Shown piece after piece: positions 4,594-10,126 of a DNA stretch of 10,723 nt. Source of the DNA: Bacteroidales bacterium (GTDB lineage Bacteria > Bacteroidota > Bacteroidia > Bacteroidales > Tenuifilaceae); contig WBUV01000072.1 in assembly GCA_008933525.1 (NCBI GenBank), forward strand, positions 1-10,723. The letters are read 5' to 3'. A program made the translations under genes and the position numbers. Below the pieces are notes generated by a model. It saw nothing but the letters and a program-made list of their open reading frames with translations. It was not told the origin of the DNA and ran no database searches. Each line of letters begins with the position of its first letter. Position 1 is the stretch's first letter.

Positions 4594-5931
4594 TTAGTGA
4601 ATTCCTCGGAACATTCTATTCCATCGTATATTCCGTGGAAAACTTTTATCCTTATCTAAGGATAACCAAACAAACGAAGCTTCTCCCACAACATGGTCTT
4701 CAGGAACAAATCCCCAGAATCGGCTATCGGCCGATCTATGCCTGTTGTCCCCCATCATAAAGTAGTAGTCCATTTTGAAAGTATAAGAATTAACCACTTG
4801 CCCATTAATGAGTATTTGTCCATTGGCAATTGCCAAATCGTTATTTTCATAAACATCAATAATTCGTTCATAAATAGGTAAATTATTCATGTTTAACTCC
4901 ACGGTTGTACCTTTTTTGGGGATCCACAATGGGCCATAATTGTCCTCGGTCCATGCGTATGATGGATTATGAGGGAATATTAGTTTCCACATTGTTAAAG
5001 TATCCACATTTTCATCTTTTACAACAGCCACAACATTGCTCATAGCCCTAATTTTAACAAGTGCTTCATCGGTCAAAGGAATTTGATAAAAACCCCCAGT
5101 GGAGCTATAGCCCTGATCATCCTTCGAAATTCCTAATTGTTCAAATCGAACTGGATTTATGGCACTACCATCCGTTTTTATTTGATAGCTATACTGCTTC
5201 TTTCCTATCTCTACTTGCTTCTGACCATTGACATATAGTTGGCCGTGTTCAATAAAGATGGTATCGCCGGGCAGTCCAACACACCGCTTAATGTAGTTTT
5301 CGCGTTTATCGACTGGTCTATAGATTATATCATAATTTTTGCGAAGGTTTTCCCTGCCATACACTCTAGCCAAAGTGTAGTAACTTGAGTTTTGATCTTG
5401 CAAAACAACTGTATCGCCCTCTGGAAAGTTAAAAACAACAACATCATTACGCTGAATATCTCCAAATCCTGCAATTCTCTTATAAGGCCAACGAGGCCAT
5501 TCAATAAACGATTTTGCAGTTTTAGAAAGAGGTAAGGTATGATGCACAAAAGGAAAAGAAATTGGTGTGTTGGGTAGTTTTGGTCCGTAGCTCACTTTAC
5601 TCACAAAAAGGTAATCGTCCACCAACAAACTTTTCTCCATGGAGGAAGTAGGAATCGTATAGGCTTCAATAAAGAACATACGGATTAAAGTGGCTGCAAC
5701 AACTGCAAAAACAATGGCATCAATCCATTCAATTAGAACCGTTTTCTTTTGTCCACGTTTTTTCCAGAATGTCCAGTTTACTTTTTGGGTGATATAAAAA
5801 TCAAAAATAATTGGGAAACCCAACAATAACCAGTAGTTTCCAATCCAAATTACCCAGAGGATAAATATTACTGCGGCAAAACCAAACTTAAAGTATTTGT
5901 GTTTCAAAAGCGATTTAATCTTGTTTATCAT
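4594..5931 (-). CDS. lepB: Signal peptidase I
   Basis: Membrane-bound serine/lysine protease (family S26) that removes signal peptides from Sec/Tat-exported proteins at the outer face of the inner membrane. The product is 445 residues. Two N-terminal membrane segments (about 15-47 and 71-88) precede the catalytic domain. Box B is IPTSSMEKSLL with catalytic Ser97; the general-base Lys215 is in YIKRCVGLPGD (213-223); box E is GDNRHRSADSRFWGFVP (394-410). The Ser-Lys distance (118 residues, against about 55 in E. coli) and the stretch between Lys215 and box E are long, with insertions at about 130-205 and 235-345. Such enlarged versions are normal for Bacteroidetes. Only one lepB copy is seen here, though tandem pairs occur in relatives. 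It follows dapB after 45 nt with no terminator, hence one operon. No SD is visible. Confidence 0.96.
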   Translation of the reverse strand: MINKIKSLLKHKYFKFGFAAVIFILWVIWIGNYWLLLGFPIIFDFYITQKVNWTFWKKRGQKKTVLIEWIDAIVFAVVAATLIRMFFIEAYTIPTSSMEKSLLVDDYLFVSKVSYGPKLPNTPISFPFVHHTLPLSKTAKSFIEWPRWPYKRIAGFGDIQRNDVVVFNFPEGDTVVLQDQNSSYYTLARVYGRENLRKNYDIIYRPVDKRENYIKRCVGLPGDTIFIEHGQLYVNGQKQVEIGKKQYSYQIKTDGSAINPVRFEQLGISKDDQGYSSTGGFYQIPLTDEALVKIRAMSNVVAVVKDENVDTLTMWKLIFPHNPSYAWTEDNYGPLWIPKKGTTVELNMNNLPIYERIIDVYENNDLAIANGQILINGQVVNSYTFKMDYYFMMGDNRHRSADSRFWGFVPEDHVVGEASFVWLSLDKDKSFPRNIRWNRMFRGIH

Positions 5932-6820: not shown

Positions 6821-7165
6821 CTACTTTAAAGAATCAACAATTGACTTGAAAGCCTCAGGATGATTCATTGCTAGATCGGCTAACACCTTACGGTTAATAG
6901 CGATACCTTGCTTGTTAATTTTACCAATGAATTCGGAGTAAGTCATACCGTAAGGTCTTACTGCAGCATTGATACGTTGAATCCATAAAGCACGGAATTC
7001 AATTTTCTTTTTCTTACGATCGCGGTAAGCGTAACCTAGACCTTTTTCTAGTGTGTTTTTAGCTACTGTAAAAACACTTCTTCTTCCTAGGAAGTTACCT
7101 TTTGTTTGCTTAAGGACTTTTTTTCTTCTAGCCCTTGATGCAACTGAATTGACTGAACGTGGCAT
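6821..7165 (-). CDS. rplT: 50S ribosomal protein L20 (bL20)
   Basis: Assembly-initiating protein of the large ribosomal subunit that binds 23S rRNA, 114 residues, normal length. The basic N-terminal extension ([20 protein letters not shown], residues 1-20) and the globular part with [20 protein letters not shown] (58-77) are diagnostic. It is the last gene of thrS-infC-rpmI-rplT and is followed by a terminator. It is 104 nt from rpmI, a much longer gap than infC-rpmI (27 nt); the gap contains a possible RNA structure. In other bacteria L20 represses its own operon by binding mRNA; whether that happens here is not shown by sequence alone. No SD is visible. Confidence 0.98.
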
Positions 7166-7269: not shown

Positions 7270-7467
7270 CTACTTCACACCAAGCATAGTTAAAACGCGG
7301 TTCTCATCAACTTTGCTAACTAAAGCAACGTGAGTAAGGCTACGTTTTTGCTTAGTTTCCTTTTTTGTAAGGATGTGACTCTTGTAGGCGTGTTTTCTCT
7401 TAATCTTCCCTGATCCGGTTAAAGAAAACCTTTTCTTTGCTCCGGAATGAGTCTTTGTTTTTGGCAT
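7270..7467 (-). CDS. rpmI: 50S ribosomal protein L35 (bL35)
   Basis: Small, very basic protein of the large ribosomal subunit; 65 residues, the standard length. The start [20 protein letters not shown] (1-20) and the following [13 protein letters not shown] (21-33) match the family throughout. It lies between infC (27 nt upstream) and rplT in the conserved infC-rpmI-rplT order. No SD is visible (AT-rich upstream, with AATAATAATAAG before the start), in contrast to infC just upstream. Confidence 0.98.
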
Positions 7468-7494: not shown

Positions 7495-8052
7495 CTATTT
7501 TTTCTTTTTTACACCTTTGGAGGATATTATCATAATCATCCTCTTTCCTTCAAGTCGAGGTAATTGCTCTACTTTACCAACTTCCTCAAGATCCTGAGCA
7601 AATCGAAGAAGTAAAATCTCGCCTTGCTCCTTGAAAAGGATTGAACGTCCTTTGAAAAAAACATAAGCTTTAACCTTAGCGCCATCCTCAAGGAAATTTT
7701 CGGCATGTTTCAACTTAAAGTTGTAATCGTGCTCATCTGTGTTGGGACCAAAACGGATTTCTTTGATAACAACTTTTTGAGTATTAGCCTTCATTTCCTT
7801 CTGTTTCTTTTTCTGCTGATAAAGAAACTTTTGGTAGTCGATAATCTTACAAACAGGTGGATCGGCCTTATCGGAAATCATCACCAAATCCAACTCCATA
7901 TCTAGAGCCATTCTACGGGCTGCATCGATAGAGAAAACCCCAGGATTTTCAATATTATCTCCTACTAAGCGAACAGTACGACTTCTAATTTCCTCATTAA
8001 TTAGAATCTTATTTTCAGCGTCCGCCCTTCTACGAATATCAGGTGCTGCTAT
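7495..8052 (-). CDS. infC: Translation initiation factor IF-3, probable AUA start
   Basis: Binds the 30S subunit, prevents premature 50S joining and checks the start codon-initiator tRNA pairing. From the ATA at 8052-8050 the product is 185 residues: N-domain (about 14-80; [18 protein letters not shown] at 16-33), linker with [19 protein letters not shown] (65-83), C-domain (about 92-176; [20 protein letters not shown] at 97-116, [14 protein letters not shown] at 132-145), and a Lys-rich tail. The first in-frame ATG (7911) would delete most of the N-domain. Between the in-frame stop at 8058-8056 and that ATG there is no ATG, GTG, TTG or CTG. ATA lies 8 nt after a perfect SD, so AUA is the best start; an ATT at 8037-8035 is the alternative but is 23 nt from the SD. 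Rare starts on infC are known (AUU in E. coli) and serve IF3 autoregulation. It is 34 nt from thrS, in the same operon. Confidence 0.95.
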
Positions 8053-8060
8053 GGTTTAAC

Positions 8061-8067
8061 CCTCCTT
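8061..8067 (-). promoter_or_regulatory. Strong Shine-Dalgarno setting the infC AUA start
   Basis: On the minus strand AAGGAGG (8067-8061) is followed by the 8-nt spacer GTTAAACC and then ATA. The frame's stop codon TAA lies within the spacer, so no upstream start is possible. Optimal spacing and perfect match to the 16S anti-SD pick ATA over the later ATT codons. Confidence 0.85.
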
Positions 8068-8086
8068 TTTTAGTTAATACTAGGTT

Positions 8087-10021
8087 TTATTGTAACTGCT
8101 TATTTACTTCATCCTTAATAAAAGCAACAAATTCGTCGAGTGTCATTTGACCCTTATCACCAACTCCTTGTACTCTAACTGAAACTGAATTGGCTTCTGC
8201 CTCTTTTTCACCCACAATTAGCAAGTACGGAATTCGACGTAACTCGTTGTCCCTGATTTTCTTACCTATCTTCTCGTTTCGGTCGTCAATCAGCGTGCGA
8301 ATATCGGAATTATTTAGGAAATTCAAAACTTTTTTTGAGTATTCGTTGTATTTTTCGCTAATTGGTAGGATTACAGCCTGATCTGGGGTTAACCAGAGTG
8401 GGAATTTCCCTCCTGTATGCTCAATTAAAACCGCCACGAAACGCTCCATGGAACCGAATGGTGCACGATGAATCATAATTGGGCGATGGCGCTTATCGTC
8501 GGCACCAATGTACTCTAACTCAAAGCGCTCAGGCAAATTGTAATCCACCTGTATTGTTCCAAGCTGCCACTTACGACCGATTGCATCCTTAACCATAAAG
8601 TCGAGTTTAGGACCATAGAATGCAGCCTCGCCCAACTCTGTGGTTGTTTTTAAGCCCCGCTCAGCAGAAGCTTCAATAATTGCTCTCTCTGCTTTCTCCC
8701 AGTTCTCGTCGGATCCAATGTATTTCTCCTTATTGTTAGGATCGCGAAGCGATATTTGCGCAGTAAAATTTTCGAAACTTAAAGTTTTGAAGATATATAG
8801 TACAATATCGATAACCTTAACAAATTCCTCCTTAAGCTGATCGGGACGGCAGAAAATATGTGCATCGTCCTGAGTAAATCCACGAACCCTAGTTAAACCG
8901 TGCAACTCGCCACTCTGCTCGTAACGGTAAACTGTACCAAACTCAGCCAAACGCAAAGGTAAATCTTTGTATGAGCGTGGCTTGGTTTTGTACATCTCGC
9001 AGTGATGAGGACAATTCATGGGTTTAAGCATAAACTCTTCGCCCTCCTGTGGAGTGGTTATTGGGCGGAAACTATCCTTACCGTACTTAGCCCAGTGACC
9101 AGAAGTAACGTAAAGTTCCTTTTGTCCAATATGGGGAGATATTACCTGCTCGTAGCCATACTGTTTTTGTACTTTCTTGAGGAACATTTCCAAACGTTCA
9201 CGAAGTTGAGCACCACGGGGCAACCATAATGGTAAACCTGGACCCACATTCTGAGAGAATGCAAATAGTTCTAGTTCTTTACCAACCTTACGGTGATCGC
9301 GTTTTTTAGCTTCTTCGAGCATAACTAAATACTCGTCGAGCAGTTTCTTTTGAGGGAAAGTAATACCGTAAATGCGGGTTAGCATTTTGTTATTCTCATT
9401 TCCTCTCCAGTATGCGCCAGCAACGCTAAGTAATTTTACCGCTTTAATGTAACTTGTATCGGGTAAGTGTGGACCACGGCAAAGGTCAGTAAACTCTCCT
9501 TGAGAGTAGAAACTGATAGTTCCATCCTCCAAGTCGGTAATCAACTCAACCTTGTACTGGTCTCCTTTTGTAGTAAACGTATTTAAAGCCTCTGCCTTGG
9601 AAACTTCCTTACGGGTGATGGCTTGCTTTTCGCGAACAAACTCCATCATTTTCTCCTCAATCTTTGGAAGATCCTCCTCTGAGATGCTATACTTATCAAA
9701 ATCGATATCGTAGTAAAAACCATTCTCAATGCTTGGGCCAATACCAAACTTCACCCCAGGGTAAAGGCTTTCAATGGCCTCGGCCATTAAGTGTGCCGAT
9801 GAGTGCCAAAAAGCGTGTTTACCCTGCTCATCGTCCCATTTATGGAGTTTAACTGTAGCATTGGTTGTAATTCCCCGCGTGAGATCCCAAACCTCGCCAT
9901 TAACGGTTACTGATAGCACATCGTTAGCCAAACGCTCCGAAATGCTCTTTGCAATCTCTAGTCCGCTTACTCCTTGGGGGTATTCGCGAACATTACCATC
10001 GGGAAATGTAATTTTAATCAT
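8087..10021 (-). CDS. thrS: Threonyl-tRNA synthetase
   Basis: Class II synthetase that charges tRNA-Thr and edits Ser-tRNA-Thr in the cytoplasm; 644 residues from the ATG at 10021, normal length. N-terminal TGS domain about 1-61. The editing domain carries HSSAH with His73 and His77, and CRGPH (181-185). The catalytic core holds the zinc ligands Cys337 (KPMNCPHH), His388 (TQDDAHIF) and His518 ([13 protein letters not shown]); motif 2 is around [20 protein letters not shown] (363-382) and motif 3 GSMERF (523-528). The C-terminal anticodon-binding domain starts near 545. I chose this start because MIKITFPDG is the family N-terminus; the in-frame ATG at 10117 adds 32 residues and would lie upstream of the candidate promoter. 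First gene of thrS-infC-rpmI-rplT. The leader is too short (about 20 nt) for an attenuator. Confidence 0.97.
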
Positions 10022-10044
10022 AACTTCAGAAAAATTGAAAGGTG

Positions 10045-10052
10045 CAAAATTA
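10045..10052 (-). promoter_or_regulatory. Candidate Bacteroidetes -7 element for the thrS operon
   Basis: The minus strand reads TAATTTTG, an exact TAnnTTTG match, placing the start of transcription near 10041 and a leader of about 20 nt. A T-run at 10076-10070 (the U-tract of the plsY terminator) falls about where the -33 element would be, but reads TTTT and not TTTG. Confidence 0.55.
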
Positions 10053-10070
10053 ATCAATTTATTAATTATA

Positions 10071-10102
10071 AAAAAATTGGGGCTGATGTTATATCGCCCC
10101 AA
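10071..10102 (-). terminator. Terminator after plsY
   Basis: On the minus strand TTGGGGC (10102-10096) pairs with GCCCCAA (10083-10077); a further GAT/ATC pair (10095-10093 with 10087-10085, one T bulged) closes a 5-nt loop. A run of seven T follows (complement of 10070-10076). It lies 24 nt past the plsY stop. Confidence 0.85.
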
Positions 10103-10126
10103 ATTATATTTAATCAAACTTAAACA

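Follow-up and report, generated by a model that had tools for sequence, protein, structure and literature searches.

Self-regulation of the translation initiation factor IF3, the product of infC, is textbook knowledge in bacteria other than those considered here. Starts of infC other than AUG have been published for E. coli, B. subtilis, Streptomyces and S. aureus (PMC13009471, PMC5472188, PMC1805508; these and the other papers cited here are quoted from parts of their texts). In E. coli, the AUU start of infC gives the feedback (PMC5472188), the Streptomyces start is ATC and is misannotated in most species (PMC5472188), and in S. aureus, retapamulin profiling located an AUA start with an extended Shine-Dalgarno (SD) sequence, pairs of such a codon with a strong SD being reported in the same work (PMC13009471). 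In ribosomes of the Bacteroidia, the 16S rRNA tail with the anti-SD is reported to be sequestered by bS21, bS18 and bS6 (PMC9976891). We found no paper on an AUA start of infC in Bacteroidota in searches of an open-licence library, and the word infC is absent from the main texts of PMC9976891, PMC6847099 (F. johnsoniae profiling) and PMC7366714 (B. thetaiotaomicron transcriptome), as far as these were available. To the extent of this search, the pattern described below for the Bacteroidota, namely, an SD with AUH starts and none with AUG, despite the sequestered anti-SD, is new, whereas non-AUG starts of infC elsewhere are already known, and some public records fit AUA in the present group as well.

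The window, that is, the whole stretch of 10,723 nucleotides analyzed here, contains thrS, infC, rpmI and rplT in this order (open reading frame list; thrS assigned by Pfam, rpmI and rplT by eye), which is the arrangement of E. coli. The features of the locus, with the basis of each, are as follows.

8087..10117, minus strand: thrS (threonyl-tRNA synthetase), upstream neighbor of infC (ORF list; Pfam)
8070..8077, minus strand: TTAACTAA element 5' of the infC SD (TTAAYTAA counts across infC loci)
8061..8067, minus strand: SD of infC, AAGGAGG (8-bp predicted pairing with the 16S tail, dG -12.7 kcal/mol, RNAduplex)
8053..8060, minus strand: SD-to-start spacer of infC, 8 nt, GTTAAACC (direct reading; spacer of 8 in 113/158 SD calls)
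8056..8058, minus strand: upstream stop TAA of the IF3 frame, two codons before AUA (direct reading)
8050..8052, minus strand: probable AUA start codon of infC (direct reading; ATA in 26/27 and ATC in 1/27 family loci)
7495..8052, minus strand: infC (IF3) coding sequence from AUA to its own stop, 185 codons plus stop (ORF list; Pfam IF3_N and IF3_C; SD-led ATA or ATC in 27/27 family loci)
7270..7467, minus strand: rpmI (bL35), downstream neighbor of infC (ORF list; named by eye from sequence and place)
6821..7165, minus strand: rplT (bL20), downstream neighbor of infC (ORF list; named by eye from sequence and place)

The infC leader on the minus strand reads TTAACTAAAAAAGGAGGGTTAAACCATAGCAGCACCT. 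The thrS stop, TAA at 8089-8087, is separated by 34 nt from the ATA at 8052-8050; the start of thrS is a TTG in the mechanical ORF list, an ATG at about 10021 being likelier by reading. In the IF3 frame, a single codon, ACC, separates the TAA at 8058-8056 from the ATA, so that the start of infC is fixed to the 3' side of this stop. No RNA structure beyond chance was found over the infC start (z -0.04), and searches of the window found no Rfam family and no tRNA. Elsewhere in the window (4594-5931, minus strand), there is a signal peptidase of 445 residues, long by usual standards, which matches Peptidase_S26 in two stretches.

The identity of the protein is clear. In the 185-residue product read from the ATA, IF3_N spans residues 18-87 (PF05198, 97.8 bits) and IF3_C residues 94-179 (PF00707, 113.3 bits), both above the Pfam cut-off; among the best 120 proteins listed, the nearest ones that carry a family name belong to Tenuifilaceae, Bacteroidales. 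The earlier note had proposed that IF3 starts at AUA, on the grounds that the frame lacks standard starts where N-domain sequence is already present, and the readings behind this proposal held. There is no ATG, GTG, TTG or CTG from the TAA at 8058-8056 down to the ATG at 7911, which is codon 48 of the AUA frame, whereas the Pfam match to IF3_N begins at residue 18; a non-standard codon shortly past the TAA must, therefore, serve as the start. The ATA lies 8 nt past AAGGAGG, as re-read here, and is conserved as ATA in 26 and as ATC in one of the 27 family loci. Most likely, judging from the sequence and its conservation, IF3 is translated from the AUA at 8052-8050. With no standard start before the domain, a near-cognate codon behind an SD and conservation of both in relatives, infC probably belongs, as had been suggested, with the genes that use near-cognate starts.

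Two other starts can be considered. The AUU at 8037-8035 is also an in-frame near-cognate codon, and the public records of some relatives (P0008, P0013) have their start at a downstream codon of this kind; however, it lies 23 nt from the SD, as the re-reading confirmed, and this position, codon 6, is poorly conserved (ATT in 4/27 and ATC in 3/27 family loci), which makes initiation there highly improbable. Even further down the scale, initiation at the ATG at 7911, the first standard start codon of the IF3 frame, would yield the 138-residue protein of the mechanical ORF list and is improbable in the extreme, given that this codon falls within the IF3_N match, that residues 18-47 of the matched 18-87 would be removed, and that the preceding sequence is conserved in relatives. 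A sequencing error hiding an ATG at 8050-8052 is likewise very unlikely because the other assemblies also lack ATG there (ATA in 26 of the 27 family loci and ATC in one).

The prediction that automated gene callers would truncate IF3 to 138 residues stood only in part. Among the 15 of 120 listed NCBI proteins that were read, P0004, P0006 and P0019 begin with MATP or MAAP, as expected from an AUA start (P0004 matches locus L062 and P0019 matches L073); in P0008 and P0013, the start is placed further downstream (ATC in L002), and P0033 is shortened to 157 aa. As public records put the infC start at various codons, a survey that relies on annotated starts may well overlook the infC SD.

For comparison, we collected 283 infC loci: 27 from genomes of the family, 139 further loci of the order (leaving out four rows, namely, three second matches and one fragment), 37 from the wider phylum (where 8 of 86 matches initially without a locus were taken in) and 80 named loci, the best 80 of 595, which may repeat species of the other sets. 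The loci are related, so that the counts are not independent events and all of them are inflated by relatedness. Starts were called among ATG, GTG, TTG, CTG, ATA, ATC and ATT, with an SD core defined as AGGAG, GGAGG or longer located 5-10 nt upstream. A single locus, L190, received no call (by eye, TAGGAGG with ATA 8 nt on), and L039 is SD plus ATA in the final caller, the labels of the tree and of the named loci stemming from an earlier version that differed at this one locus. Calls with neither SD nor ATG are uncertain, as they rest on whichever candidate codon comes first, and some ATG calls (L004, L439) may be internal.

The anatomy of infC described above is conserved. A strong SD precedes the start by 5-10 nt in all 27 family loci, with ATA in 26 and ATC in one. 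Across the whole sample, 158 of the 283 starts are led by an SD, comprising 123 ATA, 26 ATC, 7 ATT and 2 TTG codons and not a single ATG; conversely, all 49 loci called ATG lack an SD. The spacer is 8 nt in 113 of the 158 SD-led loci, 7 nt in 32, 9 nt in 9, 6 nt in 3 and 5 nt in one. When the codon exactly 8 nt past GGAGG was read in the 117 loci bearing this core, 84 were in frame, of which 72 were ATA, 4 ATC and 4 ATT (the anchor for this count being absent in 14 of 203 loci). Other codons between the stop and the core in SD-led loci are AT[ACT] in 150 of 4571 cases. The share of ATA among the AUH starts (123/156) far exceeds its share among the internal isoleucine codons of these genes (386/1718), so the start is not simply a conserved isoleucine. 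As a genome-wide signature, SD plus N8 plus ATAGC showed no excess over the reversed control (9 matches each); this string is not rare, and the evidence accordingly consists in conservation rather than in the rarity of the string.

Among the named loci, SD plus ATA was found in Marinilabiliaceae (1), Paludibacteraceae (3) and Pontibacter (1), SD plus ATC in Cryptobacteroides (1) and Merdivivens (1), and ATG without SD in Bacteroidaceae (4), Muribaculaceae (3), Proteiniphilum (1) and Petrimonas (1). Mucilaginibacter has TTG without SD (3 named loci), and Alistipes has mixed codons, also without SD. ATA without SD is called in 21 named loci, 19 of these in the Flavobacteriales clade of the tree. 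In Flavobacteriaceae-like infC (L327, L329, L333, L338), such an ATA is mostly directly preceded by G(T/C)(C/T). In the other classes of the phylum, represented by 59 loci in two samples (six genomes are common with the 37 phylum loci), 18 starts are SD-led, namely, 11 ATC, 4 ATA, 2 ATT and 1 CTG, and none is ATG; the remaining loci include 6 with ATG without SD, 26 with another first codon without SD and 9 uncalled. Given that the sampled members of the other classes mostly have AUC, AUA or AUU at infC, the near-cognate start looks old and retained in the phylum, with AUG derived, the tree being unrooted.

In the sampled loci, SD and AUG are mutually exclusive at infC. In the order and family combined, an SD is present in 120 of the 137 non-ATG loci, with 17 lacking it, vs none of the 28 ATG loci (Fisher p 3e-20, a value that ignores relatedness). 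The association of the SD with a weak start codon, proposed in the earlier note, is strong in these counts of related loci, whereas the contrast on the tree is too small to be significant. The unrooted tree of 147 rows (16 of 163 left out for length) has 11 changes of the SD and 6 of ATG; the pair test had 4 usable pairs differing in ATG, of which, on average, 2.3 showed the SD difference that was expected, 0 the opposite one and 1.7 none, and was not significant with these 4 well-supported independent pairs (median p 0.5, range 0.125-1). Two ATG loci without SD, L305 and L326, are nested on the tree among relatives with SD plus ATC, their ATG standing at the codon that matches the ATC of L297 (ATGCCAGGACCTTACAGA vs ATCGCAGGACCTTACAGA in L297). 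Furthermore, the AUA without SD in Flavobacteriaceae implies that some lineages can do without the SD. The distance to the thrS stop was considered as a cause of the SD and rejected, as it varies within every class.

In the genus of the window, SDs are rare in ordinary genes, as the earlier note had assumed for the phylum: GGAGG or AGGAG precedes only 2 of the 212 ORFs of the same-genus genome G276 (ORFs of at least 150 aa from twenty 20-kb stretches, with the first ATG taken, so that starts are approximate). In the same ORF set, pairing at or below -7 kcal/mol was found for 10 ORFs vs 11 in the control window, and at or below -10 kcal/mol for 3 vs 1. The 16S tail is GGAAUACCUCCUUUCU in the relatives G276, G024 and G282; in the assembly that contains the window, the top 16S match (L204) has GGAACACCUCCUUUUU, with the paired CCUCCUUU retained. 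The infC SD is predicted to pair with this tail, at -12.7 kcal/mol in the window and -14.1 to -9.5 across the family (RNAduplex; the rpsU criterion of about -13 comes from another program). The window's assembly contains three 16S matches of very different score (G000:C185, C59 and C531; L204, L210 and L212), and L204 and L212 agree at their 3' ends neither with one another nor with the same-genus genome, so that foreign sequence may be present in at least one case. Within the window, AAGGAGG also occurs at 800-806, in the plus-strand gene listed from 781, and an ATG four nt further on (811-813) may be where this gene really starts; in G276, a similar ORF (L264, MKTRTY) has AGGAGG before its ATG.

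Another SD-bearing gene of the family is rpsR, with GGAGG before AUG in 25 of 25 loci (L345-L369). In rpsU, an SD was found in 0 of 22 family loci (L214-L235), in contrast to Flavobacteriales, where rpsU is reported to have a strong one; no rpsU gene was found in 5 of the 27 family genomes, including the window's own. Together with the SD in 27 of 27 infC loci, these counts are compatible with infC and rpsR forming a small SD-bearing set read mainly by 30S subunits with a free tail, that is, lacking bS21 or bS18, such that IF3 synthesis would report on these subunits and AUA would add control by IF3, and F. johnsoniae ribosomes without bS21 indeed favor strong-SD mRNAs (PMC9976891). However, the SDs of infC and rpsR do not co-occur across the order: among the 27 order genomes in which both genes were read (rpsR starts were chosen by script in 28 loci, 27 of which have an infC locus), rpsR has an SD in 5 of 6 genomes with ATG at infC and lacks it in 5 of 12 with SD plus ATA at infC. 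Joint gain and loss of the pair was, accordingly, not seen, and, with the rpsR SD kept in ATG-infC genomes, the lack of an infC SD tracks the infC codon rather than a general loss of SDs. The infC pairing of -9.5 to -14.1 (RNAduplex) is also weaker than the -14 to -21 given for rpsU by another program (PMC9976891), and the available text of that paper finds no Bacteroidales meeting its rpsU criteria. We consider this alternative, which overlaps with the explanation preferred below, rather unlikely.

Upstream of the SD, TTAAYTAA is present in 49 of the 158 SD-led infC loci vs 1 of 49 ATG loci and 8 of 212 G276 ORFs, with 3.3/158 expected from composition-only shuffles; among ATA loci without SD, it occurs in 16 of 39 when the count extends over the last 13 nt before the start and in 1 of 39 when it does not. 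The element is not tied to the thrS stop. Of 82 occurrences of TAAYTAA, 67 end 3-7 nt from GGAGG; nevertheless, TAAYTAA-N3-7-GGAGG is not enriched in the 27 family genomes (137 vs 161 in the reversed control), where infC and a few other strings recur. Strings like TAACTAAATATGGAGG recur in other family genomes: in L377 (G000:C52, about 1500-1956), TAACTAAATATGGAGG is followed eight nt on by an ATG of a small heat-shock-like ORF, assigned by eye, in which a second in-frame ATG overlaps GGAGG, so that GGAGG may be coding, and in G024, one such string (L381) precedes a different ORF.

The explanation we favor, and consider probable as a whole, combines the AUA start, feedback by IF3 and an SD that holds, marks and offsets. 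Because AUA would pair imperfectly with the initiator tRNA, IF3 would tend to dissociate that 30S complex, and free IF3 would thereby lower its own synthesis; this feedback is proposed by analogy with E. coli. The strong SD, at its nearly fixed spacing of 8 nt, would hold the infC mRNA on the 30S subunit, single out the start from numerous AUH triplets, and offset the weak codon in a phylum that starts mostly on unmarked AUGs. Since the anti-SD is reported to be sequestered in Bacteroidia, the infC SD may work poorly on ordinary 30S subunits, and might either push the tail aside or serve chiefly those subunits that have no bS21. It could also be that AUA is the start but sets only a low fixed rate, with no feedback by IF3 in Bacteroidota; the ATG in the sampled named loci of Bacteroidaceae (4) and Muribaculaceae (3) indicates that feedback is dispensable at least there. 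Nevertheless, most of the lineages sampled retain AUH, even though a single substitution would turn it into AUG, and the E. coli precedent (PMC5472188) points in the same direction, so we regard a fixed rate as quite unlikely.

Extending the feedback explanation, one might speculate, although we deem this distinctly unlikely, that infC is a two-input gate in anti-SD-sequestering Bacteroidota, in which AUA would sense free IF3 and the SD would sense 30S subunits with a freed tail. IF3 would then be made when immature or bS21/bS18-poor subunits lacking IF3 are present, the anti-SD would be kept partly for infC, and the SD would be lost once infC turns to AUG. A wider question is why the anti-SD is intact in Bacteroidota though few mRNAs carry an SD. 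For this question, infC provides a natural experiment, with an SD accompanying AUH and none accompanying AUG within one order, in genomes that retain the rpsR SD.

E. coli uses SDs widely, whereas they are scarce in the window's genus (2/212 ORFs, G276). In E. coli infC, as here, a near-cognate AUH start accompanies a strong SD (PMC1805508); the codon there is AUU rather than AUA, and the feedback was tested in E. coli, whereas here it is proposed. S. aureus infC shares the AUA start and the long SD pairing (PMC13009471) but belongs to an SD-reliant organism, and its start was seen by retapamulin profiling, whereas ours is read from sequence. Streptomyces resembles the present case in having a non-canonical start, which IF3 has been shown to repress there in sigR (GTC), in the extensive ribosome-binding site of sigR and in the misannotation of infC (PMC5472188), and differs in phylum and codons and in that the effect of IF3 was shown there by mutants (PMC5472188). 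Finally, F. johnsoniae rpsU is, like infC here, a rare strong-SD gene in a phylum that sequesters the anti-SD, and is read by ribosomes lacking bS21 (PMC9976891); its SD is longer, and, unlike in F. johnsoniae, rpsU in the family of the window has no SD (0/22).
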